Below the pieces are notes generated by a model. It made no database searches and had not been told where the DNA came from. It was given only the letters and a program-made list of their open reading frames with translations. Source: Halococcus salsus (GTDB taxonomy: Archaea; Halobacteriota; Halobacteria; Halobacteriales; Halococcaceae). From it: a stretch of 64,000 nucleotides of DNA. Where the stretch lies: the NCBI RefSeq assembly GCF_009900715.1, contig NZ_JAAAJC010000001.1, forward strand, positions 62,001 through 126,000. The letters are read 5' to 3'. The position numbers and the translations under genes were made by a program. Below, in pieces: positions 2,542 through 44,818 of the stretch. How positions within the stretch are numbered: the stretch's first letter is position 1; every line of letters starts with the position of its first letter.

Positions 2542-3801
2542 ATGACCGACGCGGCCACCGTCGTCGAGACGTACCGTCCGAAGCTCGAAGCGGTGCTGGA
2601 GGAGAACGTCCTCGACTTTTGGTTTCCCCGATGCATCGACGAGGCGGGTGGCTTTCTGACGAGCTACGATAGCGAGGGCGAGTTCGCGGGCAACGGCCAC
2701 AAACAGGTCGTGACCCAGGCGCGGATGGTCTGGTTCACCGCACGACTCGCGCGCGAGGGCTACGGCGAGGAGTATCAAGAAATCGCCGAGCACGGCCTCG
2801 ATTTCCTGCTGGGCGAGATGTGGGACGGCCAGGATGGAGGGTTCGTCTGGGAAGTCGAACGCGACGGCACCACCTCGAAACCCAACAAACACTGCTACGG
2901 CCAGTCGTTCGGCCTCTACGCCCTCTCGGAGTACCATCGGGCGACCGGCGACGACCGCGCCGCCGAGTACGCCCACGAGCTCGTCGACCTGCTCGACGAG
3001 TACGCCAAAGACGAGGTTCACGGGGGCTACGTCGAGTACTTCACGCCCGAGTGGGAGCCGATCCTCGAAGGCAGAACCTACCTCGACAACATCGAGCCCG
3101 ACTGGTCGCCGAAGGAGTCCGGCGACGACGCGCTCGACGCCTCCCTGAAACTCATGAACACCCACCTCCACCTGATGGAGGCGTTCACGACCTACTACGA
3201 GGTGTTCGAAACCGACCGCGGTCGCGAGCGCTTGCACGAACTCCTCGACGTCCTCACGAACACCGTGGTCCGAAAGAAACTGGGTGCGTGTTCGGACAAG
3301 TACACAGCCACTTGGAAACCTAAGCTCGACGTCGAGGACCTGCGGGTGGTCTCGTACGGCCACGACATCGAGAACGTCTGGCTCTCGATGGACGCCGCCG
3401 ACGCCCTCGGACTCTCGAAGGACCTCTACACGGACCTCTACGAGACGCTCTGGGAGTACACCCTCGAATACGGCTACGACGACGACCATGGAGGATTTTA
3501 CTTCTACGGTGGCTTCGACGAGCCCGCGAGCTTCCGGGTCAAGGCGTGGTGGGTCCAGGCCGAAGGCATGACGAGTGCGCTTCGGATGTACGAACACACT
3601 GGCGACGAGCGCTATCTCGACGTCTTCACCGAGACCTACGACTTCCTCGACGAGTACGGTATCGACCACGACGTGGGTGAGTGGCACTCGGGCGTGACCG
3701 ACGACCTCGAACCCGTCGGGCGGAAGGGGGCGGTCTACAAGGCCGCCTACCACAACGGCCGCGCGCTCCTCGAATCGATCGCGGCGCTCGAACGGCTGTA
3801 G
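2542..3801 (+). CDS. AGE-family sugar epimerase/isomerase
   Basis: Member of the N-acylglucosamine 2-epimerase superfamily, an alpha/alpha six-barrel fold that includes mannose isomerase, cellobiose 2-epimerase and GlcNAc 2-epimerase. From ATG 2542 it has 419 residues, the usual length. An in-frame upstream start at 2455 would add 29 residues that do not look like family sequence. Recognisable segments are the N-terminal FWFPRCIDEAGGFLTSY-type motif, KPNKHCYGQSF in the middle, SYGHDIENVWL and the C-terminal KAAYHNGRALLE; the conserved His residues in these match family active-site positions. Divergent from a sugar ABC importer, so it probably converts the imported sugar. The exact reaction cannot be told from sequence. 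Confidence 0.85.
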   Translation: MTDAATVVETYRPKLEAVLEENVLDFWFPRCIDEAGGFLTSYDSEGEFAGNGHKQVVTQARMVWFTARLAREGYGEEYQEIAEHGLDFLLGEMWDGQDGGFVWEVERDGTTSKPNKHCYGQSFGLYALSEYHRATGDDRAAEYAHELVDLLDEYAKDEVHGGYVEYFTPEWEPILEGRTYLDNIEPDWSPKESGDDALDASLKLMNTHLHLMEAFTTYYEVFETDRGRERLHELLDVLTNTVVRKKLGACSDKYTATWKPKLDVEDLRVVSYGHDIENVWLSMDAADALGLSKDLYTDLYETLWEYTLEYGYDDDHGGFYFYGGFDEPASFRVKAWWVQAEGMTSALRMYEHTGDERYLDVFTETYDFLDEYGIDHDVGEWHSGVTDDLEPVGRKGAVYKAAYHNGRALLESIAALERL

Positions 3802-15097: not shown

Positions 15098-15240
15098 GCG
15101 CGATGGTGGGATGCTTTGGATGAAAGAGGTGTCGAACTCGAAGTGGTTTGGTCCTGTGTCGAGAGTCTTCGTTACGATGGGATTCGGTTGAAGGATGCGA
15201 CGATTCGATTTTGGCAATTCCTGACGACAGTGAGTGACCG

Positions 15241-15375
15241 CCCCGCGCCACGCCCTCCCCAACCGATTCGCGTCGCTCGTTGCACTCGCTCCGCTCATCC
15301 CTCGCACGAGTCGGCCGTCGAAGACGGCCTCCCGCGCGCCACACCATCCGCACCGCCACCGCTCGCCCAATGCTC
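15241..15375 (-). repeat. Dispersed intergenic repeat, copy A
   Basis: Read on the minus strand this segment shares blocks, in the same order, with the plus-strand segment at 43501-43740: ggtggcg, tgcgagggatgag, cgaatcggttggggagg and gcggggcg. Together they form an intergenic, non-coding repeat. The spacer between the second and third blocks is short (about 23 bases) in this copy. A 7-bp hairpin (ggccgtc-ttc-gacggcc on the minus strand) lies just before tgcgagg. The element fills most of the 342-base gap between purB and rqcH; the remaining bases next to purB show nothing recognisable. Confidence 0.6.
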
Positions 15376-42023: not shown

Positions 42024-43249
42024 CCCGTGAGCGTTCCGATACCGATGAGCCGCCACCGCGCGCCGACCCGGCGGTTGATGGCGATCTGGGTGCCCTCGGC
42101 CGCACAGACCGGCCGCTTCAGCGAGACCTCACACTCGTCCTCGCGCGCGCTCGTCACCGCCCCCACCGTGGTCGCGGTGCCGACGGTGAGCATCAGGGGT
42201 TCGCCCGTCGAGACGGGCTCGATCGCCTCGTCCTCGCCGACGATCCGGTCGAGCAGCGAGACGTCCATCGTGAAGTCCTCGCGGGTCGGCGGGAGCGAGC
42301 CCGGCGGCCCGGCGATCTGGCCCGCCAGCCCGTCGCCCTTCGTGAGGCTCGGGTCGAGGCCCGTCCCGACGCCGAGCAGCCCGCCCGGCGTCACGGTCTC
42401 GACGTCCTCGCCACCGGCCTGGAGCGACCGGATGTCGGTGGCGATCGGCTGCCACTCGGTCTCGCCACCGTGTTCGACTTCTCGCCCTGGGCGGAGTTCG
42501 AGCTCGTCGTCGACGTTCATCTCGCCCGCGACGAGGCTGCCACCGAGCACCCCGCCCAGCAGCTCGTCGGCGTGCGTTCCTGGCCTGTTGATGTCGAAAC
42601 TCCGAGCGACGTGGAGGCGGGCGTCCGAATCCGGGTCGCGTTCCGGGGTGGGGATCTCCTCCTCGATCGCCTGGATCAGGATGTCGAGGTTCGCCTCCTG
42701 GCCCGCGCTCACGGGAACCACCGGCGCGCCCTCGGCCACGGTGCCGGAGACGAACTCCTGGATCTCCTCGTAGTTCCGGCGCGCGCGGTCGGCATCGACG
42801 AGGTCGACCTTGTTCTGGGCGATCACGATGTTGTCGATCCCGATAGAGTCCAGCGCCATCAGGTGTTCCTGGGTCTGGGCCTGTGGCACCGTCTCGGTGG
42901 CGCTCACGACCAGCACCGCGCCGTCCATCAGTGACGCGCCCGACAGCATCGTCGCCATCAGTGTCTCGTGGCCCGGGGCGTCGACGAACGAGACGGTACG
43001 AATGGGTTCGCTCTCGACCCCGTTCTCGTCGGTCTCGGCCACCGTGTAGCACTCGGGGGCGTCGCGGTCCGGGAAGCGCCGAAAGGTCGCGTCGGCGTAG
43101 CCGAGTCTGATGGAGATGCCGCGCTTCATCTCCTCGGAGTGCTGGTCGGTCCACGAGCCCGACAGCGCCTCGACGAGGGTCGTCTTGCCGTGGTCGACGT
43201 GGCCGACCAGCCCGATGTTCACCTCCGGTTGTTGGTGGTTCCGTGTCAT
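42020..43249 (-). CDS. eif2g: Translation initiation factor aIF2 subunit gamma
   Basis: 409 residues. GTPase core of the heterotrimer that brings Met-tRNAi to the small subunit. G1 [11 protein letters not shown]3 DAPGHE, G4 NKVD are intact, followed by two beta-barrel domains ending in [17 protein letters not shown]. Heads a run of overlapping minus-strand genes (PIN, rpo7, spt4, DUF359). Confidence 0.96.
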
Positions 43250-43500: not shown

Positions 43501-43740
43501 CGGTTACGGTGGCGACGATGCGGTTGTGGTGGTTGCTGTTGGCGCGCGCTCGCGGTCGTGCGCGAACGGATGTGAGCGCGCGACCGCGGACACTGTGCGA
43601 GGGATGAGTGAGCGACTGAAGGGAGTCGTTCGAAAGGCGCTTCGCGCCTTTCGTGATGACGAAAATCGCTACGCGATTTTCGAACCACGAACGAATCGGT
43701 TGGGGAGGCGTGTGGCTGTCGCGGGGCGATGGCGGTTCTC
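43501..43740 (+). repeat. Dispersed intergenic repeat, copy B, with twin hairpins
   Basis: Shares ordered blocks with the inverted copy at 15241-15375: ggtggcg, tgcgagggatgag, cgaatcggttggggagg and gcggggcg. Here the spacer between the second and third blocks is longer and contains two adjacent perfect hairpins, each with a 10-bp stem and 3-base loop: 43631-43653 (cgaaaggcgc-ttc-gcgcctttcg) and 43660-43682 (cgaaaatcgc-tac-gcgattttcg). No convincing protein is encoded. From 43741 to 43882 the DNA is more AT-rich and probably carries the promoter of the next gene. Confidence 0.65.
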
Positions 43741-43882
43741 AGTTGCGTCGGGAGTCGTAATCGTGCTCGCTTCACTATCCAGACCGACATCTTACAGAAA
43801 CACGCTTTCACGGACCAGTAAATCATCCTACAAAAACGTGGTTCAGGCAACGGCTTTGTCAATCGAGTCCGTATGAGGAATC

Positions 43883-44818
43883 ATGAGCGAACGAACGATC
43901 CTGGCGTGCGAGGACTGCCTTCCACCGGCGGAGGCGTTCTCGGTGGTCGCCAACGAATCCCGGCTGGCGATCCTCGACGCGCTCTGGCGCGCGCCGGAGA
44001 CCCCGGTGAGCTTCTCGGAGCTCCGGCGGGCGACCGGGATGGACGACAGCGCGCAGTTCAACTATCACCTGGGAAAGCTCACGGGCCAGTTCGTCCGGAA
44101 GGTCGAGGGTGGCTACGAGTTCCGCCACGCCGGCGAGAAGGTCGTCCGGGCGATCCTCGAGGGCTCGTTCACCGAGGACCCCCGCATCGAGTCGTTCGCG
44201 GTTGACGGGACCTGCGTCGCCTGCGGGGGCGACCTCCAGGCGCGCTACGCCGACGAGCGCCTCACGGTGGCGTGTCCCGACTGCGGGATGCGCCACGGTC
44301 ACGCGCCGTTCCCGCCGGGCGGGCTGAACGACCGCACCCACGAGGAGGTCGTGGCGGCGTTCGACCAGCGGGTGCGCCACCTTCACTGTTTGGCGGCCGA
44401 CGGGGTGTGTCCCGAGTGCGGCGGTCGGATGGAGACCGCGTTCGAGCGCGACGGCGACCGACTCACCGGCGTCGTCCACGAGTGCCGCCAGTGTCACCAC
44501 GCCATCCGATCGACCGTGGGGCTCCGGCTGCTCGACCACTCGGCGGTCGTCGCGTTCCACCACGACCACGGGGTCGAACTCTGTGCGACGCCGTTCTGGC
44601 ACCACGCGTGGTGTGTCGACCACGACGCGGTGACGGTCCGCTCGGCCGACCCCTGGGAACTCGACGTCTCGATTCGACTCGACGGCGAGACGCTTCGGGT
44701 GACGCTCGACGGCGACCTCGGGGTCGTCGAAACCGACCGTGGCTACGGCGCGCTCGACGGCGGCGAGCGGCCCGCCGGGGCCTCGGGCTCGCCGGCGGGG
44801 ATGTCCGGCGAGGGTTGA
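43883..44818 (+). CDS. HTH regulator with multiple zinc ribbons
   Basis: 311 residues. ArsR-like winged helix at the N-terminus (about 15-90: AFSVVANESRLAILDALWRA...SFSELRRATGMDDSAQFNYHLGKL). It is preceded by CEDC (Cys9, Cys12) and followed by Cys pairs in CVACGG, CPDCGM, CPECGG and CRQCHH, so at least two further zinc ribbons are likely. The C-terminal third is a beta-rich domain (ELCATPFWHHAWCVDHDAV). This architecture is widespread in Halobacteria; targets unknown. Metal or redox sensing is possible but unproven. Ends with a short Gly/Ser-rich tail. Confidence 0.82.
   Translation: MSERTILACEDCLPPAEAFSVVANESRLAILDALWRAPETPVSFSELRRATGMDDSAQFNYHLGKLTGQFVRKVEGGYEFRHAGEKVVRAILEGSFTEDPRIESFAVDGTCVACGGDLQARYADERLTVACPDCGMRHGHAPFPPGGLNDRTHEEVVAAFDQRVRHLHCLAADGVCPECGGRMETAFERDGDRLTGVVHECRQCHHAIRSTVGLRLLDHSAVVAFHHDHGVELCATPFWHHAWCVDHDAVTVRSADPWELDVSIRLDGETLRVTLDGDLGVVETDRGYGALDGGERPAGASGSPAGMSGEG

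Follow-up and report, generated by a model that had tools for sequence, protein, structure and literature searches.

A twin-hairpin insert of haloarchaeal genomes that keeps its shape while its stem letters change

Two adjacent hairpins that lie between divergently read open reading frames of Halococcus salsus raise the question of what they are, how they came to stand at this place, and what has kept their stems matched. The window, that is, the whole stretch of 64,000 bases analysed here, contains hairpin 1 at positions 43631–43653 (CGAAAGGCGC-TTC-GCGCCTTTCG) and hairpin 2 at 43660–43682 (CGAAAATCGC-TAC-GCGATTTTCG), both located by a stem search and by folding the DNA as a single strand. As the initial annotation had claimed, the stems are perfect over 10 bp and close loops of 3 nt (TTC and TAC, which are GAA and GTA on the opposite strand), and the two hairpins differ at two paired positions, both of them compensated. 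No other perfect stem in the window reaches 10 bp with a loop of 3–8 nt; the next-longest stems of that loop size are two of 9 bp. The single-stranded DNA fold of 43624–43689 consists of exactly these hairpins, and its energy of −23.4 kcal/mol compares with −11.67 ± 2.26 kcal/mol in 200 shuffles (z = −5.19). One of the flanking reading frames, of 409 aa on the minus strand with its start at 43249, resembles an aIF2 gamma gene; the other, of 311 aa, is on the plus strand at 43883.

The hairpin pair as an inserted unit

The pair was correctly placed by the initial annotation inside a larger dispersed repeat. This repeat, R, has approximate limits of 43520–43760 on the plus strand (core GTGCGAGGGATGAG ... 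GGTTGGGGAGGCGTGTGG), and repeat comparison within the window finds a second copy, which carries no hairpin pair, at approximately 15180–15330 on the minus strand. In the whole genome, the R core pattern (GTGCGAGGGATGAG...GGCTGGGGAGGCGTGTGG) occurs at 20 places (loci L029–L048). Because copies of R elsewhere have the flanks of the hairpins joined to each other without the hairpins, the hairpin pair is defined as an insert, here called element E. At this site E is a unit of 62 bp on the plus strand (43626–43687), which reads TCGTTCG-hairpin 1-CGTGATGACG-hairpin 2-CGAACCA with the central linker TGATGA at 43654–43659. The target base to its left is the G at 43625, and the insertion point is G43625^C43688.

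A search with half-element patterns finds 11 copies of E in this genome. All 11 are whole, and the right end is intact in every one of the 11 found by the left half. Copies occur in either orientation within R, one R copy (at C1:778 kb) contains two of them in opposite orientation at two different sites, and some copies sit outside R altogether. By a rough test, nine of the ten loci that cover these 11 copies have no overlapping acidic reading frame, and one has. Collected copies (120) range from 54 to 66 bp, so that E is too short to encode a transposase. Its ends are 7-bp inverted repeats with one mismatch (TSGTTCG), TCGTTCG being complementary to CGAACCA at six of seven positions. When the joint was left free and counted by eye among the matches listed, TGATGA was exact in 139 of 147 hairpin-bearing places (150 places were listed, and three without hairpins were omitted). 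The sets of E were gathered with fixed joints, and conservation of the joints was checked for TGATGA and for the right end in the own genome. As a separate observation on the host repeat, many copies of R have a long stem upstream of the core; the letters of this stem vary among copies, and R may therefore also be maintained by structure.

Empty sites were sought in G007, the genome of a sister species. Such a site exists for two of the three E loci examined, with no duplicated target base, and any movement of E is read from these presence/absence differences between species. The third locus is uninformative in this respect because G007 differs there over a longer stretch. At the orthologue of the window site, the R copy of G007 reads ...CGGGAG^CGAACGA... 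without E, in surroundings that are not identical. For the E copy at C7:78676 the empty site is exact over both flanks, GGAAGACGCGAAG^CGTCTTCC; it forms an unbroken hairpin, CGGAAGACGCGAAGCGTCTTCCG, which E splits after GCGAAG without duplicating a base. A tie between the hairpins and insertion points had been suspected from the start, and it proved stronger than suspected: what was inserted is the hairpin pair itself, which sometimes enters other hairpins.

By eye, the R copy of G007 at the orthologue of the window site (L341, minus strand, bases 1851–2900) also holds an element resembling E, with a further two-hairpin insert breaking its central joint. A third insert with two hairpins stands between GAGG and GGATGAG; by this reading, several families of small elements are nested in the R copy. 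A different dispersed repeat (CCACCTTTTGCTG ... GGCAAAATGTGGATCAAAAGCCT) has been struck by E at TTTTGCTG^CG (loci L005, L011, L304, L319, L323 and, in G007, L352), and G007 has an E-free copy of it at the orthologue of the locus at C2:318 kb.

As judged by comparison of sequences, E is present as an insert without target-site duplication that favours CGNNG^CG. This consensus is drawn from 97 distinct contexts, in which C stands at −5 in 76, G at −4 in 82, G at −1 in 96, C at +1 in 80 and G at +2 in 73; positions −3 and −2 are free, and the preference thus extends over both flanks. The 120 copies with their 97 contexts were used for the counts of flanks, targets and lengths. This set lost a few copies whose left flank contains another GTTCG, and a fuller recount gives 124 distinct contexts. 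When the two flanks are joined, a stem of at least 5 bp centred on one triloop position is found in 19 of the 97 contexts, each counted once, compared to a mean of 1.1 in 1000 shuffles (maximum 5 at this centre and 9 at any centre). This position is one pair before the insertion, and in these 19 contexts the site is immediately 3' of the triloop of a small hairpin that the joined flanks would form. The mean flank stem is 3.95 vs 3.79 in the control, and stems of at least 6 bp occur in 20 vs 9.6 contexts; counts made offset by offset overlap, one long stem scoring at several offsets. The flanks overall are hardly more palindromic than shuffled ones, and hairpin targets are therefore a favoured minority. 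The proposal that the target is always a hairpin was rejected, as 78 of the 97 contexts have no triloop-centred stem.

E is widespread in haloarchaea. Its full pattern is present in 38 of 60 genomes, the own genome included, and in 17 of 30 genera, and a slightly looser pattern in 172 of 292 genomes and 61 of the 77 genera searched in the class; backwards-pattern controls gave 0 in both searches. Carriers among the matches listed in a GTDB scan with a loose pattern include Halorubrum, Natrinema, Halovivax, Haloquadratum and Halovenus. Among the 80 titled matches listed in that scan, at least 22 loci pass the stem test, all 22 of them haloarchaeal, and the other 58 (55 bacterial, 3 haloarchaeal) fail it; 15 of a further 40 matches listed pass. 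The bacterial matches were dismissed as chance matches to the loose pattern, none of those among the matches listed passing the stem test. Plasmid records that match E number 19, all from haloarchaeal genera, and in 11 the match spans at least 80% of the query; no annotated feature of the incomplete gene table lies under the best place in any of the 19. A virus-borne element was rejected: of 68 pattern matches in viral contigs, none has paired stems.

Conserved shape, changing letters and unlike partners

The compensated differences between hairpins 1 and 2 had been taken by the initial annotation as the signature of selection for structure. Its conclusion, that shape is kept and letters are not, holds for the collected copies. 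Its argument from two hairpins alone is insufficient, because comparison of the two hairpins within a single copy cannot demonstrate covariation and because template switching alone can keep stems perfect. According to the excerpted text of PMC8794818, template switching can keep stems perfect and invert loops as well.

In the copies collected, stems stay paired while their letters change, contrary to the loss of stems in other copies that the initial annotation had named as a refutation. A set of 236 distinct pairs of hairpin 1 and hairpin 2 has Watson-Crick pairing at 3393 of 3482 stem positions. A perfect stem and a 3-nt loop are found in 383 of the 472 hairpins, and the 5' arms of the set come in 88 different versions, 25 of which serve in both hairpins. 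These pairs combine the 120-copy collection with strings from the matches listed in two genome searches and are not a random sample. The sets were gathered by their fixed joints and include copies related to one another, so that the counts lack independence and relatedness inflates them. When arms are swapped between copies of equal length, pairing is 0.82 and 0.72 vs 0.99 and 0.96 in the real hairpins. In 75 gapless elements, in a repeat of the analysis run without the outer letters, the covariation score is 0.264 vs a maximum of 0.124 in 500 shuffles, and double changes are seen at 11 of 19 pairs. An alignment of 26 rows agrees with this result; its row 1 is not an observed element, and rows 13 and 15 are real though absent from the pooled set. 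Helix 1 of that alignment is uninformative, because the outer letters GTC and CAC were entered as consensus in every row. The outer stem of E has no covariation support.

The two hairpins of one element obey a further rule, in that they never share a stem (0 of 236, compared to a mean of 18.3 and a minimum of 8 in 5000 shuffles of partners). Likewise, the same outer four bases appear in both hairpins in 10 pairs vs 53.7 in shuffles. Folding offers a reason why this difference could matter: like stems pair with each other, and the two-hairpin fold is therefore lost. In constructs with consensus outer letters and the same stem twice (120), the mean pair probability of the two-hairpin form is 0.0005, compared to 0.94 in the real elements (236) and 0.86 with random partners (120). 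The lack of a shared stem in hairpins 1 and 2 points to something beyond template switching, and we read the rule as probable selection, on this folding model, for a form in which the two hairpins are present together. Clean deletion of like-stem copies was rejected as a reason for the rule, as one-hairpin forms are almost absent: there are 12 matches in 60 genomes (the backwards control had 1), and only 2 of these have hairpin remnants, both being fusions of different stems.

The loops and the mismatches bear on the level at which the structure acts. The triloops of the 383 perfect hairpins are mostly GNA (155) or TNC (138), and these similar counts mean that the two strands are alike. The most frequent loops are GAA (98) and TTC (83), followed by GGA (40) and TCC (42), and the intermediates between GAA and TTC are fewer (GAC 11, GTA 9, TAC 6, GTC 5, TTA 1, TAA 0). 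Even copies that share both stem and flank context differ by the entire loop, GAA vs TTC, and such whole-loop differences are the mark of loop inversion via template switching. Stem mismatches in the 236 pairs comprise 36 G.T and 29 A.C; one selected RNA strand should give a clear excess of G.T, and nothing here therefore favours RNA. The original suggestion of 'RNA or single-stranded DNA' is narrowed accordingly, towards DNA. Because the mismatches are without RNA-strand bias and the loops look inverted between copies, we read E as a DNA-level, shape-recognised small mobile element.

GNA triloops closed by a C-G pair form unusually stable DNA mini-hairpins, and GCGAAGC mini-hairpins are reportedly treated in published papers. 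Outside E, 239 kb of haloarchaeal loci, some of them overlapping, contain 135 perfect hairpins with stems of at least 8 bp and loops of 3–8 nt, and the commonest loop length is 3 nt, seen in 72. The 72 triloop hairpins compare with a mean of 10.3 (4 to 16) in ten block shuffles; 64 of them are closed by C-G and 48 have GNA or TNC loops. Such loops being common outside E, the loop type is not special to it. Stems that recur outside E (GGAAGACGC, GTCAGAGC and AGGAGAGC) suggest further families.

What kind of element, and how it might move

Insertion without duplication, a preferred site, conservation of shape and the distinctness of the two hairpins are demonstrated for E. On the broader question of what E is, we consider it probable that E is a non-coding, haloarchaeal small mobile repeat, moved as folded single-stranded DNA, recognised by its shape, and served by an enzyme in trans. 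In such a mechanism, E would travel as a folded single strand, and recognition would be of its shape, namely the two hairpins, possibly closed by an outer GTT/AAC stem into a three-way junction, together with the fixed joints. The enzyme would be supplied in trans; a search for an autonomous parent or enzyme of E found none. Template switching would re-match the arms and flip the loop so that stem letters drift, and selection would remove copies whose two hairpins pair together. A more general formulation is possible, and we offer it tentatively: E may be mobile DNA that inherits a fold and not a sequence, consisting of two hairpins that do not pair with each other, set on constant joints. It would move as a folded DNA single strand, in part into other hairpins and through an enzyme not yet described, would be distributed across the class, and would have further families of the same construction beside it.

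Three other explanations deserve to be weighed against these. It is unlikely that E is a palindrome element derived from IS200/IS605 (PATE-like or REPIN/BIME-like) and mobilised by a Y1 HUH transposase acting in trans, although two subterminal hairpins, no target duplication and a short left-end preference (CGNNG) would suit it and Y1_Tnp (PF01797) is present in 25 of 60 genomes, this one included. The copy number of E is uncorrelated with Y1_Tnp (Spearman 0.14, p 0.29), and in present-day gene content PF01797 is missing from 14 of the 32 E-bearing genomes that are at least 90% complete. Moreover, the site preference of E lies on both flanks with −3 and −2 free, and its short inverted ends set it apart from PATEs as they are defined in the available text of PMC3119063. 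A Y1 transposase was rejected as the mover of E on the lack of association with copy number, a test that speaks to present genomes and leaves past activity outside it. We regard as still less probable an explanation by mutation only, in which template switching copies arm onto arm and inverts the loop, shape is not selected, and E is an old neutral insert. The loops do look block-flipped (GAA/TTC and GGA/TCC), with few intermediates and also within one flank context, and both stem maintenance and loop inversion by template switching are reported in the excerpted text of PMC8794818. However, mutation by itself does not predict the complete absence of same-stem pairs or the avoidance of shared outer bases. 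Deletion acting between like stems would be expected to leave elements with a single hairpin behind, whereas the 2 remnants among the 12 matches are fusions of different stems, and the near-constant TGATGA joint also needs explanation.

That E is a structured RNA element under selection at the RNA level, for example one like box C/D RNAs, appears highly improbable. Box C is RUGAUGA, which the joint GUGAUGA resembles, and the near-constancy of TGATGA among the matches listed would be in keeping with such an element. Against it, the box D word CTGA is found inside none of the 120 copies, and within 40 nt of them in only 10 on the left and 10 on the right. The excess of G.U on the E strand is little (the 36 vs 29 given above), GNA and TNC loops are about equally frequent so that the strands are alike, and E lies in either orientation inside R. 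A known RNA family was rejected, as the window has 0 Rfam matches at gathering scores.

About half of the letters of E change, and recognition or counting of mobile elements by sequence therefore misses it easily. With hundreds of copies, E is a natural experiment on template switching vs fold selection in keeping stems matched. That the two hairpins have to be unlike can be tested directly as a prediction about the active form of E. E also reopens a question raised in 2011 for Haloquadratum, namely what enzyme mobilises haloarchaeal repeats that have no transposase of their own.

E among known repeats and mobile elements

No description of E was found in the literature on haloarchaeal repeats, REPs, SMRs, MITEs and REPINs, as covered by titles and the starts of abstracts, with subscription papers and supplements outside that scope. 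A text search for two stretches of the E centre returned papers that are, by title, on other subjects. Several known systems nevertheless share features with it. The attC site of integrons, which lies next to a gene cassette, is a single imperfect hairpin carrying extrahelical bases, and it is recognised by shape with variable stem letters. Recognition of a fold with variable letters would be common to attC and E, and in contrast to attC, E has two hairpins and no cassette. REP, BIME and REPIN sequences are paired small palindromes that are dispersed in genomes and proposed to be mobile through TnpA-REP transposases. E is also a dispersed pair of small palindromes, but it lacks a GTAG-type tag, its stems are not conserved within a genome, its two hairpins differ from each other, and no E-linked transposase was found when PF01797 was scored by presence in genomes. 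The RepRanger survey of REPs, in the portion of PMC12306157 available, tabulates six archaeal genomes, none of them haloarchaeal.

The CGTC-tagged palindromic repeats described in the accessible text of PMC3733652 resemble E in being palindromes with a CCA tail and without a dedicated transposase. They have stems of 8–9 bp, near-fixed outer AT pairs and loops of mostly 4–5 nt, and occur in five bacterial phyla; the CGTC tag, as that text gives it, is not placed at the hairpin end as in E (PMC3733652). PATEs, in the part of PMC3119063 that defines them, have palindromes near both ends, no target duplication and a non-coding length, with terminal-only forms of 52 bp. E is like them in these three respects of palindromes, target and length; they lack inverted ends and resemble IS605 termini, whereas E has near-perfect 7-bp inverted ends (PMC3119063, same part).

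The nearest known kind is the small mobile repeats (SMRs) of Haloquadratum. SMR-A and SMR-B of Haloquadratum walsbyi are described, in the available text of PMC3119063, as short and non-coding, with inverted terminal repeats and no target duplication. Their mobilisation is called enigmatic there, and SMR-A inserts within palindromes of PATEs and IS605-type transposons. The same text gives about 110 bp for SMR-A and 80 bp for HqIRS41, with copies of the same type commonly more than 95% identical. E is also short, with inverted ends and no target duplication. Compared by the description of SMRs, it differs in its length of 54–66 bp, in stems that change freely (88 5' arms in 236 pairs) and in its presence in 61 of 77 genera. 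We therefore file E as a member of no named family, set apart by description from the SMRs to which it stands closest.
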